Of a stretch of 64,000 bases of DNA, positions 1,409 to 64,000 are shown piece after piece. The notes under the pieces are model-generated. The model made no database searches, was not told where the DNA came from, and saw nothing but the letters and a program-made list of their open reading frames with translations. Position 1 is the first letter of the stretch. Each line of letters begins with the position of its first letter. The DNA is taken from assembly GCF_000425705.1 (NCBI RefSeq), contig NZ_AUDY01000008.1, positions 62,001 to 126,000 on the forward strand, in the 5' to 3' direction. The stretch is from Halobacillus kuroshimensis DSM 18393 (GTDB lineage: Bacteria; Bacillota; Bacilli; Bacillales; Halobacillaceae). The translations under genes and the position numbers were made by a program.

Positions 1409-2749
1409 ATGACAAAAGCGGATGTGCAGAATGATATGTTCGTAAAGGACGAAAAGTATGTATGGCACTCCATGAAGCCGTACAAACCCGAAAATACGAT
1501 GATCGCGAAAAGTGCGAAAGGCTCATGGATTACGGATGTGCAAGGCAATCGTTTTCTGGATGCGATGTCAGGCTTATGGTGTGTAAACATCGGATACGGC
1601 CGTGAGGAACTGGCGGAGGCCGCCTATAATCAAATTAAGGAATTGTCCTACATGCCGATGACCGAAAGCCACGAGCCTGCCGTAAATCTGGCTGAAAAGA
1701 TCAATGACATGCTCGGGGGAGACTATGTCGTCTTCTTTTCCAATAGTGGGTCCGAAGCGAATGAAATGGCGTTCAAAATGACACGGCAGTATCACCAGCA
1801 GAAGGGGGATCATTACCGATCCAAATTCATCTCCCGTTACCGCGCGTATCATGGGAATTCGACAAGCTCCCTCTCTGCTACAGGCCAGGCCCAGCGGAAG
1901 TATAAATATGAACCACTGGGATCAGGTTTTCTTCATGTAGCTCCGCCTGATGAATACCGCAATCAACATAGTGAAGCTGACCGCTGGGGAGCGGAGGATA
2001 TCGATAAGGTCATGACCTGGGAATATAACGAAACGATTGCCGGAGTGATTATGGAACCGATTATCACCGGGGGAGGCGTCATTGTTCCGCCGGAAAATTA
2101 TATGAAGGAAGTTAAGTCCATCTGCGAAAAACACGGAGCTTTAATGATTGTGGATGAAGTCATCTGTGGGTTTGGGCGGACAGGTCAGCCGTTCGGGTTT
2201 ATGAATTACGGGGTTCAGCCTGATATCGTGACGATGGCCAAGGGCATGACCAGTGCCTATCTGCCCTTGTCAGCGACCGCTGTGAAAAGAGAAATCTATG
2301 AAGCCTTCTGTGGAGAAGAGACTTACGATTTCTTCCGGCATATCAATACATTTGGAGGCAGCCCCGCTTCCTGCGCCGTTGCACTGAAAAATATTGAAAT
2401 TATGGAGAAGGAAAAGCTTTTCCAACGTTCCAGCCAGTTGGGAGATCTTGTGAAAAACGAATTGCATACGCGTCTGCAGGGGCATAAATATGTAGGAGAT
2501 GTCAGAGGTAAAGGGCTGCTGATTGGAATCGAGCTCGTCTCTGATAAAGAAACGAAAGAACCGCTGGCTGTGGAAAAAGTCAATGCCGTCATCCATCGGT
2601 GTAAGGAGAAAGGCATCATTATCGGAAAGAATGGGATGACGGTAGCCGGTTACAATAACATATTAACTCTGGCGCCGCCGTTATCGATTGAAGAGGAGGA
2701 TGTCACCTTCCTGATCCATACACTGGTCGAGGCTATCTACACCCTTTAG
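1409..2749 (+). CDS. Class III omega-aminotransferase (beta-alanine/taurine:pyruvate type)
   Basis: A 446-residue PLP-dependent fold-type I aminotransferase. The PLP lysine is about K278 in VTMAKGMTS, and GSEANE and the VDEVICGFGRTG signature are intact. The N-terminal WHSMKPYKPENTMI and SGLWCVNIGYG sequences are typical of the omega-amino acid:pyruvate subgroup (beta-alanine, taurine, GABA donors). Start ATG has GGGGAGG 8 bases upstream. The next gene, 22 bases downstream, is alanine dehydrogenase: together they would move an amino group to pyruvate and then release it as ammonia while regenerating pyruvate. The exact donor is inferred; beta-alanine fits the pantothenate-type operon at 56800-63055. 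Confidence 0.8.
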   Translation: MTKADVQNDMFVKDEKYVWHSMKPYKPENTMIAKSAKGSWITDVQGNRFLDAMSGLWCVNIGYGREELAEAAYNQIKELSYMPMTESHEPAVNLAEKINDMLGGDYVVFFSNSGSEANEMAFKMTRQYHQQKGDHYRSKFISRYRAYHGNSTSSLSATGQAQRKYKYEPLGSGFLHVAPPDEYRNQHSEADRWGAEDIDKVMTWEYNETIAGVIMEPIITGGGVIVPPENYMKEVKSICEKHGALMIVDEVICGFGRTGQPFGFMNYGVQPDIVTMAKGMTSAYLPLSATAVKREIYEAFCGEETYDFFRHINTFGGSPASCAVALKNIEIMEKEKLFQRSSQLGDLVKNELHTRLQGHKYVGDVRGKGLLIGIELVSDKETKEPLAVEKVNAVIHRCKEKGIIIGKNGMTVAGYNNILTLAPPLSIEEEDVTFLIHTLVEAIYTL

Positions 2750-55419: not shown

Positions 55420-55446
55420 AAAAAGGCCCGCTGTCAGGAGCGGACC
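55420..55446 (-). terminator. Terminator of the PucR-type regulator gene
   Basis: On the minus strand GGTCCGCT (55446-55439) pairs with AGCGGGCC (55432-55425), then TTTTTG. It overlaps the stop codon. Confidence 0.7.
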
Positions 55447-56600
55447 GGGCTTTGTATGTACTGCCAGCCGAGTAAAGCCATTTCCAGGGCTACCCGCTGT
55501 TCGGAGCGGAGAAAGTGAGGTCCCAGGATTTCCTCCAGTTTCTGTATCCGGTGATAGAGGGTCTGCCGCACAATGAACAGGCGCTCCGCCGTATCTTTTT
55601 TAGAACCATAGCTTTCCAGATATGCCCGGAGGGTCTCCAGCAGTTCGGTGTCATGAGATTCATCATAGGAAAGAACATCTCCGAGAGTGTCCTGAATGAA
55701 AGATTCAAGGCGTCCCTGCTTATCATCTTCCACGATCAGCCGCCACGGATGGAGTTTTTCATAAAACGGAATTTCAAGCTGAAAAGCGGCTTGGATATGG
55801 GCGGCTTCCTGTGTGCACCGCATGGACCTGGGGATTTCTGATAGGTTTGTAAACAATGGTCCATAGCTGATGGTATGATACATACTGCGTACTTTTTCCT
55901 TCATCACCTGCAAGGATCTGAACAGTCGTTCTGGAACGTCTTGTTTCCGTTCATCCAGAAGGAGAAGGACGAGTTCGTCCCGATGCTGAAGCGGGAGTGG
56001 ATGAAAGCCTTCCTTTTGAAAAAAGGATTGGAAAATGTCCCGCTGATAGGGGATGCTGTCATCGTATCCCGTCAACAAGCAGGGGATCCCCCGTGCCTCA
56101 TTTTTTCCGATGGTCTTCTGGAGGTAGGGCAGCACCTCTTTATCCGTCATTGTGCCCTCCAGCCACCGGCTCACCCAGTTTTCCTGACGGGGCATGAGGC
56201 GGGAGGACTGTAGAATCAGCTGGTTGATATCCTTGGATATATCGATGAACCGGACTTCCTTGTCAAAGACGACGACGGGAAGGTCATGGTCATCCGCCAG
56301 CTGCAGGAGTGAAGGGGGAAGCTGGTTGATATAATCGCCGAGTTCTATGCAGAGACAGGTGACTTTTTTTTCGATAAGCTGTTCAAGGAAGGAACGGGCA
56401 TGCTGCAATTCCTTTCCCCATCCGATCCCTGTCGTCATGACACATTCGCTGCCGTGAAGCAGGTGTTTCACTTTCGTCAATTCAAGGATGTGCGCCCAGG
56501 AAACAGTCTTCTCCAGACCACCGCGGCCGGCCAGAATGGAAGCATGCTGGAACTGGGGGCGCATCAGCATGTCGTGTACCGTAAACATCATAGGGGACAT
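55434..56600 (-). CDS. PucR-family regulator of the predicted pantothenate catabolic operon
   Basis: A 388-residue PucR-type regulator: N-terminal PucR domain (FTVHDMLMRPQFQHASILAGRGGLEKTVSWAHILE ... LPVVVFDKEVRFIDISKDINQLIL, residues about 5-140), a central region, and a C-terminal HTH (YLESYGSKKDTAERLFIVRQTLYHRIQKLEEIL). It is divergent from the operon starting at 56800 and shares that 200-base gap, so it very likely controls it. It is a close paralogue of the regulator at 1-1272. An AGGAGG lies 11 bases before the ATG. Confidence 0.88.
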   Translation of the reverse strand: MSPMMFTVHDMLMRPQFQHASILAGRGGLEKTVSWAHILELTKVKHLLHGSECVMTTGIGWGKELQHARSFLEQLIEKKVTCLCIELGDYINQLPPSLLQLADDHDLPVVVFDKEVRFIDISKDINQLILQSSRLMPRQENWVSRWLEGTMTDKEVLPYLQKTIGKNEARGIPCLLTGYDDSIPYQRDIFQSFFQKEGFHPLPLQHRDELVLLLLDERKQDVPERLFRSLQVMKEKVRSMYHTISYGPLFTNLSEIPRSMRCTQEAAHIQAAFQLEIPFYEKLHPWRLIVEDDKQGRLESFIQDTLGDVLSYDESHDTELLETLRAYLESYGSKKDTAERLFIVRQTLYHRIQKLEEILGPHFLRSEQRVALEMALLGWQYIQSPVRS

Positions 56601-56627: not shown

Positions 56628-56674
56628 ACATTGTGTACATGGGTTGATGCTGAAAGTGGTCCTGATGTCTAATG
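56628..56674. promoter_or_regulatory. Candidate PucR-type operator region
   Basis: ACATTGTGT (56628-56636; inverse of ACACAATGT) and ATGTCTAATG (56665-56674) both also occur upstream of the aminotransferase at 1324-1338. They lie in the divergent promoter region between the regulator and the symporter operon. Confidence 0.35.
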
Positions 56675-56799
56675 TGCATCTCAGCGGTCCATGCTAAGGT
56701 TATTAATAATCTCTCAATTCAAATATATCTGAAAATTGTCGATGGGGAAAGGTTTCTTTAGTGAAACAGGATGTCGGTATTAGATAAAGGAGGATCTAT

Positions 56800-57081
56800 A
56801 TGAAAGAGAAAAAACCCTTCGAGGATGACCCGCGGTACCGGGTGGCCGACAGGGAAGCGCTGATCGGCGTCGGCCTTGTCATCCTTAACTTCCTCATGTG
56901 GTTCGGCTCGGCGTACGGGCTCGGATCAAAACCGGTTTCGGAATACAATTATATTTTCGGGCTGCCGGACTGGTTCTTTTACAGTTGTGTGGTAACGACC
57001 GTTGTCATCATTCTTCTCGTAATTCTTGCTGTGAAGTATTTTTATAAGGAAGTCCCGCTGGATGAGGAGGATGAATCATGA
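56800..57081 (+). CDS. YhdT-family small subunit associated with PanF
   Basis: A 93-residue protein with two membrane helices (EALIGVGLVILNFLMWFGSAYGLGSKPVSEYNYIFGLPDWFFYSCVV is the YhdT/DUF997 core). In E. coli yhdT lies directly before panF; here too it precedes panF and overlaps it by 4 bases. AAAGGAGG precedes the ATG. Probably assists the symporter. First gene of the operon 56800-63055. Confidence 0.88.
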   Translation: MKEKKPFEDDPRYRVADREALIGVGLVILNFLMWFGSAYGLGSKPVSEYNYIFGLPDWFFYSCVVTTVVIILLVILAVKYFYKEVPLDEEDES

Positions 57082-58544
57082 ACTGGGCAGTTGTTGTCCC
57101 CCTTTTAGTTTTTCTCGTTATTATTTTCTGTATCGGCTTTTATGCATCGAACCATTTGAAAACTACATCCAATTTCCTGCAGGAGTATTTCCTTGGCAGC
57201 CGGCAGCTGGGTGGGTTTATCCTTGCCATGACGATGATTGCTACATACGGCAGCGCGAGCAGCTTTATTGGCGGACCCGGTGTCGCTTATACGATGGGTC
57301 TCGGCTGGGTGCTCCTTTCCATGACACAGCTTGCTACAGGATATTTCGTTTTATCGGTACTTGGAAAGAAATTCGCTATTATGGCAAGGAAAATCAAAGC
57401 CGTAACGCTGATCGATTTTCTGAAAGAACGCTATCAAAATAAATGGGTCGTCATTTTGTCAGCGCTCAGTATTATCCTGTTTCTGTTTTCGGCTATGGCG
57501 GCCCAGTGGGTGGGCGGCGCCCGGCTGATCGAGTCATTAACGGGTCTTTCCTACACAGCGGCGTTATTCATTTTTGCTGTTTCTGTACTCGTCTACGTCA
57601 TTATCGGCGGCTTCCGCGCGGTAGCGATTACCGATACCGTCCAGGGCGTCGTCATGTTCTTCGGGACGCTCATCATTTTGATCGGGACCATCATTGCAGG
57701 CGGTGGAATCGGACCGATCATGTCGGATCTGGCAGCGGAAAATCCGAATTTGATTTCCCCGTATGGCGCGGATCAGTCACTCACACCGCTTTATGTGTCT
57801 TCCTTCTGGATTTTAGTCGGTGTCGGTGTCGTTGGTCTGCCGCAGGTGGCGGTGCGCGCAATGTCATATAAAAGTTCGAAAGGAATGCACCGCGCTTTGT
57901 TGATTGGTACGGTTGTTGTCGGGTTCATTATGCTCGGCATGCATTTGACGGGTGTCTTTGCCCGCTCTGTCCTTCCAGGTATAGAAGTCGGAGACACGGT
58001 CATGCCGAGAATCGCGATGGAAGTGCTGCCGGCCTGGCTCGCCGGAATTGTACTTGCTGCCCCGATGGCAGCGATTATGTCGACGGTGGACTCGCTGCTT
58101 TTGCTGGTCAGCTCTGCTGTCGTTAAGGATGTGTATTTGAATTATGTGAAGCCCGAGGCGGACGACCGGACGATCAAAAAAATCAGTATCGGTGTCACGA
58201 CGGTTATCGGTCTGCTCGTCTTTGCTATGGCGGTCAATCCGCCCGAGCTGCTGATCTGGTTGAATTTATTCTCCTTCGGCGGTTTGGAGGCGGCCTTTAT
58301 CTGGCCGGTGATTATGGGCCTGTATTGGAAAAAAGGCAATGCAGGCGGAGCAATGGCCTCGATCATCACCGGGGTCGGAAGCTATGTTGTATTCCATTCA
58401 TTCATGCCGAATGCTTTCGGAATGCATACGGTCGTTATGCCGGTGCTGTTGTCGTTCGCTGCGTACGTTCTTGTCAGTCTCATCACGATGAAACATCATG
58501 CCAAGGTTCAGGATGAAGTCATTACCAAACTATGGAGTGCATAG
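57078..58544 (+). CDS. panF: Sodium:pantothenate symporter
   Basis: A 488-residue solute:sodium symporter with about 13 membrane helices. The sequence is close to E. coli PanF across its length: NEYFLGSR-type QEYFLGSRQLGGFILAMTMIATYGSASSFIGGPGVAY, GLGWVLLSMTQL, GVVGLPQVAVRAMSYKSSKGMHR, LAAPMAAIMSTVDS and IWLNLFSFGGLEAAFIWP. It would import pantothenate with sodium. Coupled to the YhdT gene and followed at 13 bases by an amidohydrolase gene, so uptake here is likely linked to breakdown rather than only to coenzyme A synthesis. Specificity cannot be proven from sequence. Confidence 0.88.
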   Translation: MNWAVVVPLLVFLVIIFCIGFYASNHLKTTSNFLQEYFLGSRQLGGFILAMTMIATYGSASSFIGGPGVAYTMGLGWVLLSMTQLATGYFVLSVLGKKFAIMARKIKAVTLIDFLKERYQNKWVVILSALSIILFLFSAMAAQWVGGARLIESLTGLSYTAALFIFAVSVLVYVIIGGFRAVAITDTVQGVVMFFGTLIILIGTIIAGGGIGPIMSDLAAENPNLISPYGADQSLTPLYVSSFWILVGVGVVGLPQVAVRAMSYKSSKGMHRALLIGTVVVGFIMLGMHLTGVFARSVLPGIEVGDTVMPRIAMEVLPAWLAGIVLAAPMAAIMSTVDSLLLLVSSAVVKDVYLNYVKPEADDRTIKKISIGVTTVIGLLVFAMAVNPPELLIWLNLFSFGGLEAAFIWPVIMGLYWKKGNAGGAMASIITGVGSYVVFHSFMPNAFGMHTVVMPVLLSFAAYVLVSLITMKHHAKVQDEVITKLWSA

Positions 58545-58557
58545 AGGAGTGGATGGA

Positions 58558-59787
58558 ATGATCTTGATTGATGAAAAAGCACGTGTAGAGAGGGATACAA
58601 AAGAAGTGGTCGATCTGACGCAGGCGCTCGTCCGGATTCCAAGTGTCTACCGGCCTGGAGTGAAGGATGGAAATGAAGAAAAAACCGCCCATTATGCGGC
58701 CGCTTACTTGGAAGAGATGGGGATGGACGTCCATGTGGAGGAAGTCGAACCGGGCCGGCCGAATGTCATTGGAATTTATGATACCAAAAGGCCTGGGAAG
58801 ACCTTGTTGTTTGAAGGTCATACCGATGTGGTGACAGAAGGAGATCCGGCCCGTTGGACGTATGATCCATTCGGAGCTGAGATTGTCGAAGGACGGATGT
58901 ACGGCAGGGGCACGAATGATACGAAAGGAAATCTTGCCTGTGCCATTACAGCGGTCCATTCCTTGATCAAGGATGAAGAGGAGCTGAATGGGAAAATCAT
59001 TCTGTGCATTCCTTGTGATGAAGAAGGGATGATGATCGGCATTAAACATTTTATCCAGCAGGGATGGGCGCGTGATGTAGATGGAGCTGTCATATGTGAA
59101 CCGGAGGAAAACCAGCTCTGTACCGCTCAAAAAGGGGCGATGAGGATCCAGATTGATGCCTACGGCCGTCAGGCGCATGGGGCAATGCCCCTTTCCGGGC
59201 TGAATCCGAATACGAGGATGGCGAAGATCATCACGGCTTTGGATGAACTGGAGCAGAGGGAAAAAGAGAAGACCGGGAAGCATGAGCTGCTTGGGTGGCC
59301 GAGCATCACACCGACAATTCTGCAGGCCCCTGTATCCGGTGAACCCCAGATCAATGTAGTGCCGGAACAGTGCCGGACAACGTTGGATATCCGTACAGTT
59401 CCAGGCCAGGATCACGAAGCTTTAAAACGGGACATCCAACAGATCCTGGATAGGACGATGGAAGGGGATGCGGGGTTCGATGCGGAAATGATCGTTCTGG
59501 AGGAGCGCCCCTGGACGAAAACGGACCGGGAGAACCCAGTGGTAACGGCGGTGGCGGAAGCCTATAAAAAAGTGACGGGCAAAGCGCCGGTATATAACGG
59601 TGTCCCCGGAGCCACAGACGGAACATTTCTTCACCTTGCCGGCATCCCCATTTTGACGACGGGTGGAGGAGACCGGGAAGTCCCCCATCAGGTGGATGAA
59701 TACATCGACATCTGTGATCTTGTGGAAACGACCCAGTTATACAGGCAGACAGCACTCGAATTTCTTCAGGAGCCGAAAGAGTCATGA
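58558..59787 (+). CDS. M20-family amidohydrolase, proposed pantothenase
   Basis: A 409-residue ArgE/DapE-type zinc amidohydrolase. Metal and catalytic residues: H88-x-D90 in FEGHTDVV, D121 in GRGTNDTKGN, E155/E156 in CDEEG, E181 in CEPEEN, and the C-terminal histidine in REVPHQVDEY. The ATG at 58558 has GAGGAG 8 bases before it. General family reaction: hydrolysis of an N-acyl amino acid. In this operon the natural candidate is pantothenate (an amide of pantoate and beta-alanine), giving pantothenase (EC 3.5.1.22) activity; this is inference. Acetylornithine or diaminopimelate roles are unlikely because no arginine or lysine genes are near. Overlaps the next gene by 4 bases. Confidence 0.8.
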   Translation: MILIDEKARVERDTKEVVDLTQALVRIPSVYRPGVKDGNEEKTAHYAAAYLEEMGMDVHVEEVEPGRPNVIGIYDTKRPGKTLLFEGHTDVVTEGDPARWTYDPFGAEIVEGRMYGRGTNDTKGNLACAITAVHSLIKDEEELNGKIILCIPCDEEGMMIGIKHFIQQGWARDVDGAVICEPEENQLCTAQKGAMRIQIDAYGRQAHGAMPLSGLNPNTRMAKIITALDELEQREKEKTGKHELLGWPSITPTILQAPVSGEPQINVVPEQCRTTLDIRTVPGQDHEALKRDIQQILDRTMEGDAGFDAEMIVLEERPWTKTDRENPVVTAVAEAYKKVTGKAPVYNGVPGATDGTFLHLAGIPILTTGGGDREVPHQVDEYIDICDLVETTQLYRQTALEFLQEPKES

Positions 59788-60842
59788 AGCTCGCGGTCAT
59801 GGCAGGTGACGGCATCGGCCCCGAGGTAATGAACGAAGCGCTTAAAGTGTTGAACACCCTCTCTTCTCTGGATTCAACACTTCAGCTCGAGATGGAAGAG
59901 CTGCCCTGGAGCAGTGCGTATTACATGGAAACCGGCAGGATGATGCCTGCGGACGCTCTCAGTTATCTGCAGCATTTCGATGCCATCCTATTCGGAGCGA
60001 TCGGAGATGCCCGGGTGCCTGATGAAGTGACCATCTGGGATTTAATCATGCCAATCCGGAAGGAGTTTCAGCAGTATGTGAACGTACGGCCTGTAAAACA
60101 GCTGAAGGGCGTCGCCTCCCCGCTGGACACGAAAGCCCCGATTGATTTCGTCGTCTTTCGTGAAAATGCAGAAGGGGAATATTCCCATATGGGCGGGAGG
60201 ATGTATGGACAAACCAGTCAGGAGATGGCGGTGCAGACGACGGTCATGACGAAGGCAGGCATCCGCCGACTGAGCAGGTATGGTTTTGATTATGCGAGAA
60301 AGCATGGTAAAAAGACCGTCACAAGTGCTACAAAATCCAATGCGATCATTCATACGATGAAGCTTTGGGATGATGTGGTCCGGGAAGTTGGGCAGGAGTA
60401 TCCTGAGATTCGTCTTTCTCCTGTCTATATCGATGCACTGGCCGCCTACTTTATCAACCGGCCGGAATCGTTCGAGGTGGTCATTGCCTCGAACTTATTC
60501 GGAGATATACTCACAGACCTCGGGGCCGGGATTGTGGGGGGTCTCGGCTTATCCCCTTCTGCGAATTTAAACCCGGAGGGACAGTTTCCATCCATGTTTG
60601 AGCCCATACACGGATCGGCTCCGGATATATCAGGCAAAGGCATCGCCAATCCTGTAGCACAGATCTGGTCTGCGGCATTGATGTTGGAGCATAATGGACG
60701 GCCTGATCTGAGTGATTTGGTCATGAACGGTATGGAAGCTGTTCTTGCTGAACAGGAGATCCGCACCCCTGATCTTGGTGGGAAATCCAGCACAGCCGAT
60801 ATGGGCGATGCTATTATCCGTGCCATCCATGCCCAAACGTAA
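59784..60842 (+). CDS. D-malate/tartrate-type decarboxylating dehydrogenase, proposed 3,3-dimethylmalate dehydrogenase
   Basis: A 352-residue NAD-dependent beta-decarboxylating dehydrogenase of the DmlA/tartrate dehydrogenase branch: [30 protein letters not shown] (E-rich branch motif instead of the Leu[11 protein letters not shown]), SATKSNAI, IASNLFGDILTDLGAGIVGGLGLSPSANL and FEPIHGSAPDISGKG. Branch members oxidise and decarboxylate D-malate, tartrate or substituted malates. (R)-3,3-dimethylmalate is a 3-substituted D-malate, so the step to 2-oxoisovalerate (EC 1.1.1.84) fits well. Start ATG overlaps the amidohydrolase stop. Tartrate or D-malate use is the alternative. Confidence 0.82.
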   Translation: MKLAVMAGDGIGPEVMNEALKVLNTLSSLDSTLQLEMEELPWSSAYYMETGRMMPADALSYLQHFDAILFGAIGDARVPDEVTIWDLIMPIRKEFQQYVNVRPVKQLKGVASPLDTKAPIDFVVFRENAEGEYSHMGGRMYGQTSQEMAVQTTVMTKAGIRRLSRYGFDYARKHGKKTVTSATKSNAIIHTMKLWDDVVREVGQEYPEIRLSPVYIDALAAYFINRPESFEVVIASNLFGDILTDLGAGIVGGLGLSPSANLNPEGQFPSMFEPIHGSAPDISGKGIANPVAQIWSAALMLEHNGRPDLSDLVMNGMEAVLAEQEIRTPDLGGKSSTADMGDAIIRAIHAQT

Positions 60843-60857
60843 AGGAGGAATCAGAAA

Positions 60858-61598
60858 GTGAGAGTCAAAGGCAGACATATCATTGTTACAGGGGCTTCTG
60901 GAGGAATGGGACAGGCGGTCATTTCCAGACTGTTGGAAGAAGGAGCCTCCGTAACGGCGGTAGACCGGGTCCGCATGCCGGACATAGACCAGCGAATGTA
61001 TCCATTTGTGGAAGCGGATTTGACGAAGGAAGAAGATGTGGAACGTGTTGTGAAGACTTCCATTGAACAGAATGGACAAATCTACGGCGTCGTCAACGCT
61101 GCTGGTATGGCCCAGGCTGCAGCCCCTCTTGAAGAAGTGACAACAGATTTCTGGGATATGGTCATGAATGTCAATGCAAAAGCGGCCTTTCTCATGTGCC
61201 GGGCAGCTGTTCCTTATATGAAAAAAGAGCAGTGCGGGGTTATTGTGAATATCGCCTCCATTGCAGTTGAACGGGTGAGGCCGGGCCTCAGTGCGTACAT
61301 TGCTTCCAAAGGAGCTGTGACTGCTTTTTCGAAAGCGCTTGCGATAGAACTGGCTCCTGACAGCATCCGTGTCAACGTCATTCACCCCGGTCCGTCTGAT
61401 ACCGGCATGCTTGGGGAATTTGTCCGGCCCGGAGAGAATATGGATGATACAAAGAGGGAGGTGTTTCAGAGGTCTGTGCCACTGGGACGGTTGATTGACC
61501 CTGATGATATTGCCCATGCCGTCGTATACCTCGTTTCTGATGAAGCACGTATGACGACCGGCAGTGTTTTTTCCATTGATGGCGGCCGCGGATTATAA
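60858..61598 (+). CDS. Short-chain dehydrogenase, proposed pantoate 4-dehydrogenase
   Basis: A 246-residue classical SDR: NAD motif T11-G-A-S-G-G-M-G18, NNAG-type NAAG, catalytic Y147-xxx-K151 in SAYIASKGA and a family-typical GSVFSIDGGRGL end. GTG start with AAAGGAGG 9 bases upstream. In the proposed route it oxidises the C4 alcohol of pantoate to 4-dehydropantoate (EC 1.1.1.106). SDR sequence alone does not reveal the substrate. Lies 15 bases after the decarboxylating dehydrogenase and 8 before the aldehyde dehydrogenase. Confidence 0.82.
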   Translation: MRVKGRHIIVTGASGGMGQAVISRLLEEGASVTAVDRVRMPDIDQRMYPFVEADLTKEEDVERVVKTSIEQNGQIYGVVNAAGMAQAAAPLEEVTTDFWDMVMNVNAKAAFLMCRAAVPYMKKEQCGVIVNIASIAVERVRPGLSAYIASKGAVTAFSKALAIELAPDSIRVNVIHPGPSDTGMLGEFVRPGENMDDTKREVFQRSVPLGRLIDPDDIAHAVVYLVSDEARMTTGSVFSIDGGRGL

Positions 61599-61606
61599 AG
61601 GGGGAA

Positions 61607-63055
61607 ATGAATGTGCGCATACTTAAGAATTTAATTAATGGTGTCTGGTCAGAACCTTCTGCCGGTGCACGGATGGATATACATAATCCTTCGACTGGAG
61701 AAGTGATCGCCGATGCTCCCGCAAGCAGCAAAGAGGATATAGACCTGGCCGTATCGGCAGCAAGACACGCTTTTAGTGCAGGAGACTGGCCGTTGGTGAA
61801 GCCCTATGAACGTGGACAGATGCTTCTGAGGGTGGCTGAGATGATCAGGGAGAATAAAGAGTCTCTCGCCCTTCTTGAGATGCTTGATACGGGAAAGCCG
61901 ATTTCACAGGGAAGGGCGGATGTGGAGGCAGCGGCCCGTTATTTCGAATTTTATGGGGGAGCCGCCGATAAAATCCACGGGGAAACCATTCCGATTGAAC
62001 CGGGGGTGCTCGACTATACCCTTCGGGAACCTGTGGGCGTCACGGCTCACATCATTCCTTGGAACTATCCGCTTCAAGTAGCCTCGAGAAGCTGCGCAGC
62101 CGCTTTAGCTACAGGCAATACGGTCGTCATGAAACCGGCGGAACAGACGCCTCTGACTGCCGTGGAGCTGGGGATGATTCTCCAGCAGGCAGGGGTCCCT
62201 GATGGAGTCGTCAATCTCGTCCTTGGAGAAGGACATACCGCAGGAGCTCGCCTGGCTGGTCACCCTGATGTGAACCATATAACGTTCACAGGATCTGTGC
62301 CGACCGGGACGGAGGTTATGAAAGCCGCTGCTGAAAACATCGTCCCTGTCACTCTGGAGCTTGGGGGGAAATCACCGAACATCGTATTTCCCGATGCATC
62401 GCAGGATGAAGCGGTCGAATGGGTGGTCAAATCGATCATTCAAAATGCCGGCCAGACATGCTCCGCAGGTTCCCGCCTGCTCGTTCATGCGGACTGCAAA
62501 GCTTCGTTCGTAGAGAAGGTGATTCATCGAATGAACCATTTGAGCATGGGTCCTGGAGAAAGCGACCCGGATATCGGTCCGATTTTATCGGAGCAGCAGT
62601 GCCGGCGGATCGAGACCTTTATGAAGAAGGTGGAGGCAGATGGTGGGAAGTTTCTGCTTGGTGGAACACGTGCCTACGTTTCAAATGCACCTGGAGGCTG
62701 TTATTTCAAGCCGACGATTATCGACGGGCTGAGGCCTGAAAGTGAGATAGCCCGAGAGGAAGTCTTCGGTCCTGTCCTCTCTGTGTTCGCCTTTGAAACC
62801 GATGAGGAAGCGGCTCATCTTGCCAACAGCACCGAGTATGGACTTGTCACAGGTATTTGGACGAAGGACGTGTCACGTGCCCATAAGCTGGCGGAAAAAG
62901 TGAAGGCTGGACAGATCTTCATTAACAATTACGGTGCCGGCGGAGGGATACAGATGCCCTTTGGCGGTTACGGCAAGAGTGGGTTTGGCAGAGAGAAGGG
63001 GCTTGAAGCTTTAAGAAACTATACACAACTGAAAAACATCGCCTTGAAAATGTAA
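61607..63055 (+). CDS. Aldehyde dehydrogenase, proposed 4-dehydropantoate dehydrogenase
   Basis: A 482-residue NAD(P)-dependent aldehyde dehydrogenase. Motifs: IIPWNYPLQVASRSCAAALA, the catalytic glutamate in LELGGKSPNIVF, nucleophile C285 in NAGQTCSAGSRL, and EEVFGPVLSVF. It resembles the betaine-aldehyde dehydrogenase group. In the proposed route it oxidises 4-dehydropantoate to (R)-3,3-dimethylmalate (EC 1.2.1.33). GGGGG precedes the ATG. Last large gene of the operon. If the route is wrong, a role on another aldehyde, such as malonate semialdehyde, is possible. Confidence 0.85.
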   Translation: MNVRILKNLINGVWSEPSAGARMDIHNPSTGEVIADAPASSKEDIDLAVSAARHAFSAGDWPLVKPYERGQMLLRVAEMIRENKESLALLEMLDTGKPISQGRADVEAAARYFEFYGGAADKIHGETIPIEPGVLDYTLREPVGVTAHIIPWNYPLQVASRSCAAALATGNTVVMKPAEQTPLTAVELGMILQQAGVPDGVVNLVLGEGHTAGARLAGHPDVNHITFTGSVPTGTEVMKAAAENIVPVTLELGGKSPNIVFPDASQDEAVEWVVKSIIQNAGQTCSAGSRLLVHADCKASFVEKVIHRMNHLSMGPGESDPDIGPILSEQQCRRIETFMKKVEADGGKFLLGGTRAYVSNAPGGCYFKPTIIDGLRPESEIAREEVFGPVLSVFAFETDEEAAHLANSTEYGLVTGIWTKDVSRAHKLAEKVKAGQIFINNYGAGGGIQMPFGGYGKSGFGREKGLEALRNYTQLKNIALKM

Positions 63056-63326: not shown

Positions 63327-63445
63327 ATGCCTTCAGGTGATCATTCCGCTCCTTTTTCCATAATTTATTGCTTTCCTGTTGTAGTAAGTTTCCTTCTTTG
63401 CTGCACACTAATGAGCATCAGAGAATGGAAAGGAACGATGAACCG

Positions 63446-64000
63446 TGGCTGAAGTGCTGTATATCACCGCCCACCCTCATGATGAAACTGCTTCTTACAG
63501 CATGAGTGTCGGCAAAGCATTTATTGAGCAGTATAAAACCGCAAACCCAGAGGATACGGTTACGCCGATTGATTTGTATAAGGAGTCCATTCCTCACATC
63601 GATGCGGATATTTTCAGTGGCTGGGGGAAACTGCAGTCCGGAGGTGAACTCACCCCGGACGAGGAAAGAAAAGTATCCCGGCTGAAGGAATTAAGTGATC
63701 AGTTTACGAGCGCTGATAAATATGTCTTTGTAACACCTATGTGGAATTTCTTTTTTCCACCGGTTATGAAAGCCTATATTGATTCCGTTGCGGTGGCAGG
63801 GAAAGCTTTTCAATATACGGAGGAGGGTCCTGTTGGTCTGCTGACGGATAAGAAAGCCTTCCATATCCAGGCGTGCGGCGGCATTTATTCTGAAGGACCG
63901 GCCGCAGGAATGGAGATGGGGCATCGGTACCTCAAGACCGTCATGCAGTTTTTCGGTATTCCCTCGATTGAAGGGTTGTTCGTTGAAGGGCATGCGGCTA
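63446..64000 (+). CDS. azoR: FMN-dependent NADH-azoreductase, 3' end outside the window
   Basis: The frame from the GTG at 63446 (GGAAAGGA about 10 bases upstream) runs off the window after 185 codons. It begins [30 protein letters not shown] and contains [49 protein letters not shown], the FMN-binding and active-site segments of AzoR-type quinone/azo reductases. Such enzymes detoxify quinones and related electrophiles. Full-length relatives are slightly above 200 residues, so about 25 residues are missing. Confidence 0.9.

Follow-up and report, generated by a model that had tools for sequence, protein, structure and literature searches.

A candidate operon for the uptake and catabolism of pantothenate in Halobacillus kuroshimensis

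Pantothenate (vitamin B5) is degraded in Pseudomonas by pantothenase (EC 3.5.1.22), pantoate 4-dehydrogenase (1.1.1.106), 4-dehydropantoate dehydrogenase (1.2.1.33) and dimethylmalate dehydrogenase (1.1.1.84), a route reportedly worked out by the enzymology of the 1960s, in papers of 1966. Which genes could encode such a route is the question raised by a locus in Halobacillus kuroshimensis DSM 18393. The window analysed here comprises 64,000 nucleotides of its 3.85-Mb genome (C1:62001-126000 of genome G000, contig NZ_AUDY01000008.1) and contains a divergent PucR-type regulator next to a six-gene operon. The original prediction assigned this operon to pantothenate catabolism and held that genes for the route are not generally assigned. 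The latter agrees with our survey, since neither a pantothenase gene assignment nor growth on pantothenate was found in the open-licence literature searched, with assignment elsewhere being possible, and a 2023 paper gives the protein behind the Pseudomonas fluorescens pantothenase as unknown (PMC10393543). Based on the equivalog score of the transporter, its replacement in related loci, the conserved neighbourhood and the co-occurrence of the genes, the operon very probably takes up and catabolises pantothenate, a reading drawn from sequence comparison.

The gene content provides the first line of evidence. The open reading frames (ORFs) of the regulator and of all six operon genes are intact, and family searches confirmed the families that had been claimed for them, namely PucR and HTH_30 in the regulator and DUF997, PanF, M20, Iso_dh/TTC, adh_short and Aldedh in the operon. 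The regulator lies on the minus strand (55434..56600; PF07905, 109 bits; PF13556, 67 bits), and the operon is on the plus strand. It begins with YhdT (56800..57081; PF06196, 108.3 bits), a small membrane protein paired with PanF, the Na+/pantothenate symporter (57078..58544), which scores 736.6 bits against the TIGR02119 equivalog, far above the cut-off of 328.05. An M20 metallo-amidohydrolase follows (58558..59787; PF01546 and PF07687), proposed from its families and context as the pantothenase that would split pantothenate into pantoate and beta-alanine. The next gene encodes a TTC/D-malate-type decarboxylating dehydrogenase, hereafter IDH (59784..60842; PF00180, TIGR02089), a putative (R)-3,3-dimethylmalate dehydrogenase yielding 2-oxoisovalerate and CO2. 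The last two encode a short-chain dehydrogenase/reductase (SDR; 60858..61598; PF13561) and an aldehyde dehydrogenase (ALDH; 61607..63055; PF00171), the proposed pantoate 4-dehydrogenase and 4-dehydropantoate dehydrogenase. A single operon therefore holds one product of suitable class for each of the four steps in addition to uptake, and the match of enzyme classes to steps and of transporter to substrate drawn in the original prediction is supported.

The genes are as tightly packed as had been described (gaps or overlaps of at most 16 bases), with 4-base overlaps between YhdT and PanF and between M20 and IDH, and gaps of 13 (PanF to M20), 15 (IDH to SDR) and 8 bases (SDR to ALDH). These values take 58558 as the M20 start. 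The longest M20 ORF begins at 58498; the ATG at 58558 is the likely start because 14 of the 17 family matches align only from residue 8-30 of that ORF onwards (of the other three, one aligns from residue 52, and the window's own and a near-identical one align from residue 1), and because AGAGGAG precedes it at 58543-58549. Chance does not account for the grouping, since 20 control stretches, each 20 kb long and taken at self-chosen round-number positions in 10 family genomes that carry M20, had no match to any of the seven proteins (PucR and the six of the operon) at the thresholds applied to the loci; all 28 query proteins together returned two matches there (one ALDHb, one FTHFS).

Are these genes also inherited together? 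Among 44 genomes of the family, M20 (E<=1e-60) is present in 17, IDH of at least 462 bits in 18 (some IDH at E<=1e-60 in 23) and SDR (E<=1e-50) in 18. The high-scoring IDH and SDR accompany M20 in all 17 of its genomes, and one further genome, G039, has both without M20 (Fisher p 2.6e-11 for M20 versus IDH+SDR, ignoring kinship among the 44 genomes). Across an even sample of the order, M20 (E<=1e-120) is patchy, occurring in 22 of 397 genomes and 13 of 135 genera. The G039 locus (L104) carries IDH-SDR-ALDH behind a GntR regulator, an FAD-linked oxidase and a TRAP transporter. The best PDB matches of the TRAP binding protein are 4pdd and 4nq8, the latter reportedly modelled with pantoate, and the binding proteins closest to this TRAP protein include D-erythronate binders, which places the transporter in the pantoate/erythronate class. 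Pantoate and D-erythronate are listed as TRAP substrates in one paper (PMC5812351), and another describes structures related to its protein as holding pantoate or erythronate, most such ligands having co-purified (PMC11668362). From these sequence matches, pantoate uptake by the G039 transporter is plausible.

We then considered the neighbourhoods of related M20 genes. Scanning genome contigs with M20 confirmed 163 relatives, and the top 80 of them (L021-L100), a phylogenetically clustered set, were compared; the nearest named relative is Halobacillus litoralis (L021), with an M20 91% identical to that of the window. Neighbours were scored by tblastn at fixed, self-chosen thresholds within 10-kb flanks (shorter at several loci), because ORF-based calls missed some EcfT and EcfS genes, apparently behind antisense ORFs, and the ATPases of energy-coupling factor (ECF) transporters were told from peptide-type ABC ATPases by family searches. 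PanF is present at 33 of the 80 loci, always with YhdT, and EcfT with EcfS at 27, the two systems never occurring together; of the remainder, 9 have a peptide-type ABC transporter and 11 none of these transporters. IDH, SDR and ALDH occur together at 42 loci, always on the M20 strand, in the order M20-IDH-SDR-ALDH at 22 and in other orders at 20. PanB and/or PanE homologues accompany M20 at 10 loci (both at 9) in Clostridia-like bacteria, unplaced Firmicutes and spirochaetes. No locus has both PanB/PanE and the oxidative set, which suggests that pantoate can reach 2-oxoisovalerate by two routes, one through IDH-SDR-ALDH and the other through PanB/PanE. A class-III aminotransferase, whose presumed substrate is beta-alanine, and/or a methylmalonate-semialdehyde dehydrogenase (MMSDH) is found at 11 loci. 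Overall, PanF, ECF or PanB/PanE mark 68 of the 80 loci, or 76 when IDH+SDR is counted. In the M20 tree (85 rows, quick method, long-branch warnings for the outgroups and L099), transporter and downstream module have been swapped repeatedly within one family around a constant M20. The ECF-PanT-like S component, PanB/PanE and the aminotransferase or MMSDH beside this M20 subfamily support pantothenate as the substrate, and the annotated neighbours linked the cluster neither to tartrate nor to N-acyl amino acids, which the original prediction had named as contrary outcomes. One locus, L027, belongs to a record titled Pseudomonas sp. ISL-84 that is possibly misnamed or contaminated; its layout is that of the Cytobacillus loci and its aminotransferase is 96% identical to that of L024.

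The replacement of PanF by an ECF transporter, which is of an unrelated type, bears directly on the substrate. For the S components of L041 and L049 (two tested of the 27 ECF loci), the PDB has no relatives at E<=0.001 other than 4rfs and 6zg3, and these match weakly (E 7e-10 and 2e-5 to 2e-4). Both structures are ECF-PanT, and three PanT residues are named as important for pantothenate binding in the paper concerned (PMC7755397). In all 22 S components aligned, the arginine and asparagine are conserved and phenylalanine takes the place of the tryptophan. Bacillus subtilis likewise imports pantothenate through an ECF system, with PanU as S component (PMC11487621). Two M20-less stretches of the same genus (L105, L106) hold a bare YhdT-PanF pair, with no match to PucR or the cassette genes. 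Since the window PanF is 88-89% identical to theirs, a PanF native to the genus may be the gene to which the rest of the cassette was added.

Several observations weigh against the pantothenate reading. PanF occurs in 41 of the 44 family genomes, 24 of them without M20, and was accordingly rejected as stand-alone proof of pantothenate catabolism. The control stretches come from one bacterial family only, and the loci compared are the clustered best 80 of 163. Within the stretch covered, 38 of the 80 loci lack the IDH+SDR pair, and four (L029, L055, L095, L097) lack PanF, ECF, PanB/PanE and IDH+SDR alike. More distant M20 relatives lie near pyrimidine or MMSDH genes, and the wider M20 family therefore has other substrates. 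NCBIfam, lastly, would name the IDH a tartrate dehydrogenase (TTC, TIGR02089), whose cut-off of 470.4 bits it marginally exceeds with 474.0; its score against PRK08194, 474.2, stays below the 501 set there.

This score just over the TIGR02089 cut-off, together with the D-erythronate binders among the closest relatives of the G039 TRAP protein, would favour an operon for tartrate or another hydroxy acid with PanF as an accidental neighbour. Such an operon is highly improbable, given that 17 of 44 genomes have M20, IDH and SDR together and that rearrangements leave the three linked, that tartrate use does not call for an amidohydrolase, and that the links to PanB/PanE and to ECF-PanT-like components would be left unexplained. 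No tartrate-specific gene was recognised among the annotated neighbour families of the related loci, and tartrate as the principal reading was rejected on neighbours and co-inheritance. The residues that we take to be catalytic are kept in at least 97% of the aligned copies, the window's included: R92, R102, R126, Y133, K184, D217, D241 and D245 in 44 copies of IDH, S134, Y147 and K151 in 47 of SDR, and N153, E251 and C285 in 36 of ALDH. When plasmids were searched with IDH and SDR, many matches appeared, all of them distant.

The Pfam scores of the M20 enzyme (PF01546, 116.1 bits; PF07687, 70.7 bits) place it in the M20 peptidase family, and H88, D90, D121, E155, E156, E181 and H377 are kept at 97% or more of 81 aligned copies, again including the window's, with metal-ligand motifs that align with those of DapE. 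Its AlphaFold2 model (pLDDT 93.6) has a DapE-like fold, with 7uoi ranked first. Among 25 of 56 NCBIfam matches, every equivalog cut-off, DapE and ArgE included, was missed (e.g. NF006399, 208.1 vs 381; TIGR01892, 192.3 vs 297.7), and the general subfamily TIGR01910 was the only one whose cut-off was reached. Public names such as 'succinyl-diaminopimelate desuccinylase', seen among the 120 matches listed from 7998 candidates scored, a count that is no measure of abundance, are likely wrong. The M20 protein is likely a pantothenase, as judged from its sequence and neighbours. Since the P. fluorescens enzyme reportedly works by way of an acyl-enzyme, the metalloenzyme may be a non-homologous replacement of it.

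The alternative that this protein hydrolyses N-carbamoyl-beta-alanine or another N-acyl-beta-alanine, in an operon for a different beta-amino acid conjugate, draws on the outer M20s. These are about 44% identical to the window protein and lie on Deinococcus and Thermus plasmids: the Deinococcus aetherius one (L102:8013-9161, 44%) is near preA (dihydropyrimidine dehydrogenase) and dihydropyrimidinase genes, the Thermus one adjoins an MMSDH gene, and the beta-alanine leaving group would be common to both reactions. We regard this alternative as improbable nonetheless, since the genome's pyrimidine cluster is separate and has its own CN_hydrolase, the M20 subfamily keeps company with PanF, ECF-PanT-like or PanB/PanE genes at 68 of 80 loci, and in the quick tree, with its long-branch warnings, the clade that unites the window and 79 loci (80 rows) excludes the three outer M20s. 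For the window subfamily, the N-carbamoyl-beta-alanine reading was rejected on the separate cluster and its CN_hydrolase. The D. aetherius protein itself is a possible N-carbamoyl-beta-alanine hydrolase, and near an outer M20 from an unannotated record of Nonomuraea (42%) there is a match to S58. Relatives that release beta-alanine may have given rise to the pantothenase.

How would the proposed pathway run? We infer each substrate, the order of the steps and the regulation from the observed gene content, catalytic residues, neighbourhoods and co-occurrence. PanF, with YhdT, would import pantothenate with Na+, and the M20 metalloenzyme would hydrolyse its amide to pantoate and beta-alanine. 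Oxidation by the SDR at C4 of pantoate would then give the aldehyde, which the ALDH would convert to (R)-3,3-dimethylmalate, and oxidative decarboxylation by IDH would give 2-oxoisovalerate, which would enter branched-chain amino-acid metabolism. An alternative fate is salvage, in which pantothenate is cut to supply beta-alanine for coenzyme A (CoA); cleavage and rebuilding of pantothenate is reported for prototrophs, E. coli and other bacteria (PMC10393543). Salvage is quite improbable here, because three co-inherited dehydrogenases in the operon would consume the pantoate and because the genome has panB and panC elsewhere. With panB and panC present, the operon is also not explained as a means of providing the vitamin to an auxotroph without them. 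Under pantothenate catabolism, beta-alanine could pass to a class-III aminotransferase distant from the operon (1409..2749, plus strand), 56% identical to that beside YhdT-PanF-M20 in L024, and to the MMSDH of a pyrimidine-catabolism cluster. This reductive cluster (L108, C1:46001-62000) comprises MMSDH, CN_hydrolase, GltA-like, PreA, dihydropyrimidinase and NCS1 permease genes and ends just before the window, where the aminotransferase follows; together they are therefore candidates for beta-alanine use and, separately, for N-carbamoyl-beta-alanine cleavage. Downstream of the operon, an apparently separate FMN-dependent NADH-azoreductase-like gene (63445-63999) is cut by the window end.

PucR is the likely regulator of the operon and would probably control its expression, perhaps through a near-palindrome in the gap between PucR and YhdT, TTCAAATATATCTGAA (56718..56733, no strand assigned), a candidate operator predicted from a conserved block. 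PucR stands divergently at the same place in L021 and L022. PucR matches occur somewhere in 17 of the 80 loci. The candidate operator is conserved in the window and L021 and, with one mismatch, in L022, and has no second site in the genome when one mismatch is allowed; with up to two mismatches allowed, the expectation for the window is 0.13, and 13 of 100 shuffles had one. No exact match was found in the other loci of 128, so the site is at best special to this PucR lineage. Promoter and terminator scans stayed at chance level.

The related loci extend the proposal in two directions. An S58 hydrolase gene is present at 38 of the 80 loci, 25 with ECF, 7 with peptide-type transporters and 6 with PanB/PanE (one also with PanF). 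The closest PDB relatives of the L041 protein (L041:8978-9949) are nylon (polyhexamethylene adipamide) hydrolase (E 1.9e-72) and then ThnT (E 1.4e-52), a pantetheinyl hydrolase (PMC3964991, PMC6097109). The S58 protein near M20, of this nylon-hydrolase/ThnT type, is a candidate bacterial pantetheine hydrolase; that it feeds M20 with pantothenate from pantetheine is only a lead. An oligopeptide transporter (OPT) gene adjoins S58 in L084 and L089, and Opt1, such a transporter in yeast, takes up mixed disulfides of pantetheine (PMC12406275). Inside the 64-kb window, S58, the ECF S and T components, PanB and PanE have no match.

The second direction concerns the PanB/PanE exit. In Sinanaerobacter L084, PanB (TIGR00222, 341.5 bits) and PanE (TIGR00745, 278.8 bits) homologues directly precede M20, and the locus further holds formyltetrahydrofolate synthetase (FTHFS), cyclodeaminase, FolD, a formate channel, three 2-oxoacid:ferredoxin oxidoreductase subunits, YhdT-PanF, the OPT transporter and S58. 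We infer that it would convert pantoate via ketopantoate to 2-oxoisovalerate and a one-carbon (C1) unit, biosynthesis in reverse. L083, L084, L085, L089 and L092 are candidate fermentative pantothenate loci with PanB-PanE-M20, and some of them have FTHFS, FolD, formate channel and ferredoxin oxidoreductase subunits. Among 11 genomes tested (those of L083, L084, L085, L086, L089, L092, L094, L095, L096, L098 and L100; several are metagenome bins and possibly incomplete), panC had no match in 8, of which 7 have panB, while both genes are present in those of L084, L085 and L089. Vitamin fermentation by PanE and PanB running backwards was not found in the open-licence literature searched. We lean towards a modular, cross-phylum system, headed by the M20 subfamily, that would use vitamin B5 and CoA fragments as food: ThnT-family S58 would open pantetheine to pantothenate, M20 would cut it, and pantoate would leave through IDH-SDR-ALDH or, in anaerobes, through PanE and then reversed PanB, with FolD/FTHFS releasing the C1 unit as formate and yielding ATP, 2-oxoisovalerate oxidised by the ferredoxin oxidoreductase, and a kinase in some.

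With a pathway assignment that has strong support from gene context, the operon offers a testable candidate gene for each step of a pantothenate breakdown described in the 1960s, points to likely DapE and tartrate-dehydrogenase misannotations, and would predict which bacteria use up vitamin B5 instead of providing it; its relatives suggest an anaerobic route running PanB and PanE backwards. Compared with Pseudomonas pantothenate degradation, the number and type of steps match, the comparison being by reaction steps only, as no gene sequences were found for the Pseudomonas enzymes. ArgE/DapE-type M20 deacylases (closest structures 7uoi and 5vo3) share fold, metal-ligand motifs and reaction type with the window M20, but are 25-27% identical to it and have a different gene context. 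The tartrate dehydrogenase/decarboxylase 3flk and D-malate-type dehydrogenases share family and conserved catalytic residues with the window IDH, and presumably also the decarboxylating oxidation of an (R)-malate-like acid. The window IDH class (at least 462 bits, 18 genomes) is set apart from the other members in the 44 genomes, which reach at most 394 bits, and is co-inherited with M20. With the ECF-PanT/PanU and PanF uptake systems the operon would have the vitamin in common, PanT being the sole PDB relative of the two sister-locus S components tested; the difference is that the transporter genes here are tied to genes for degradation.

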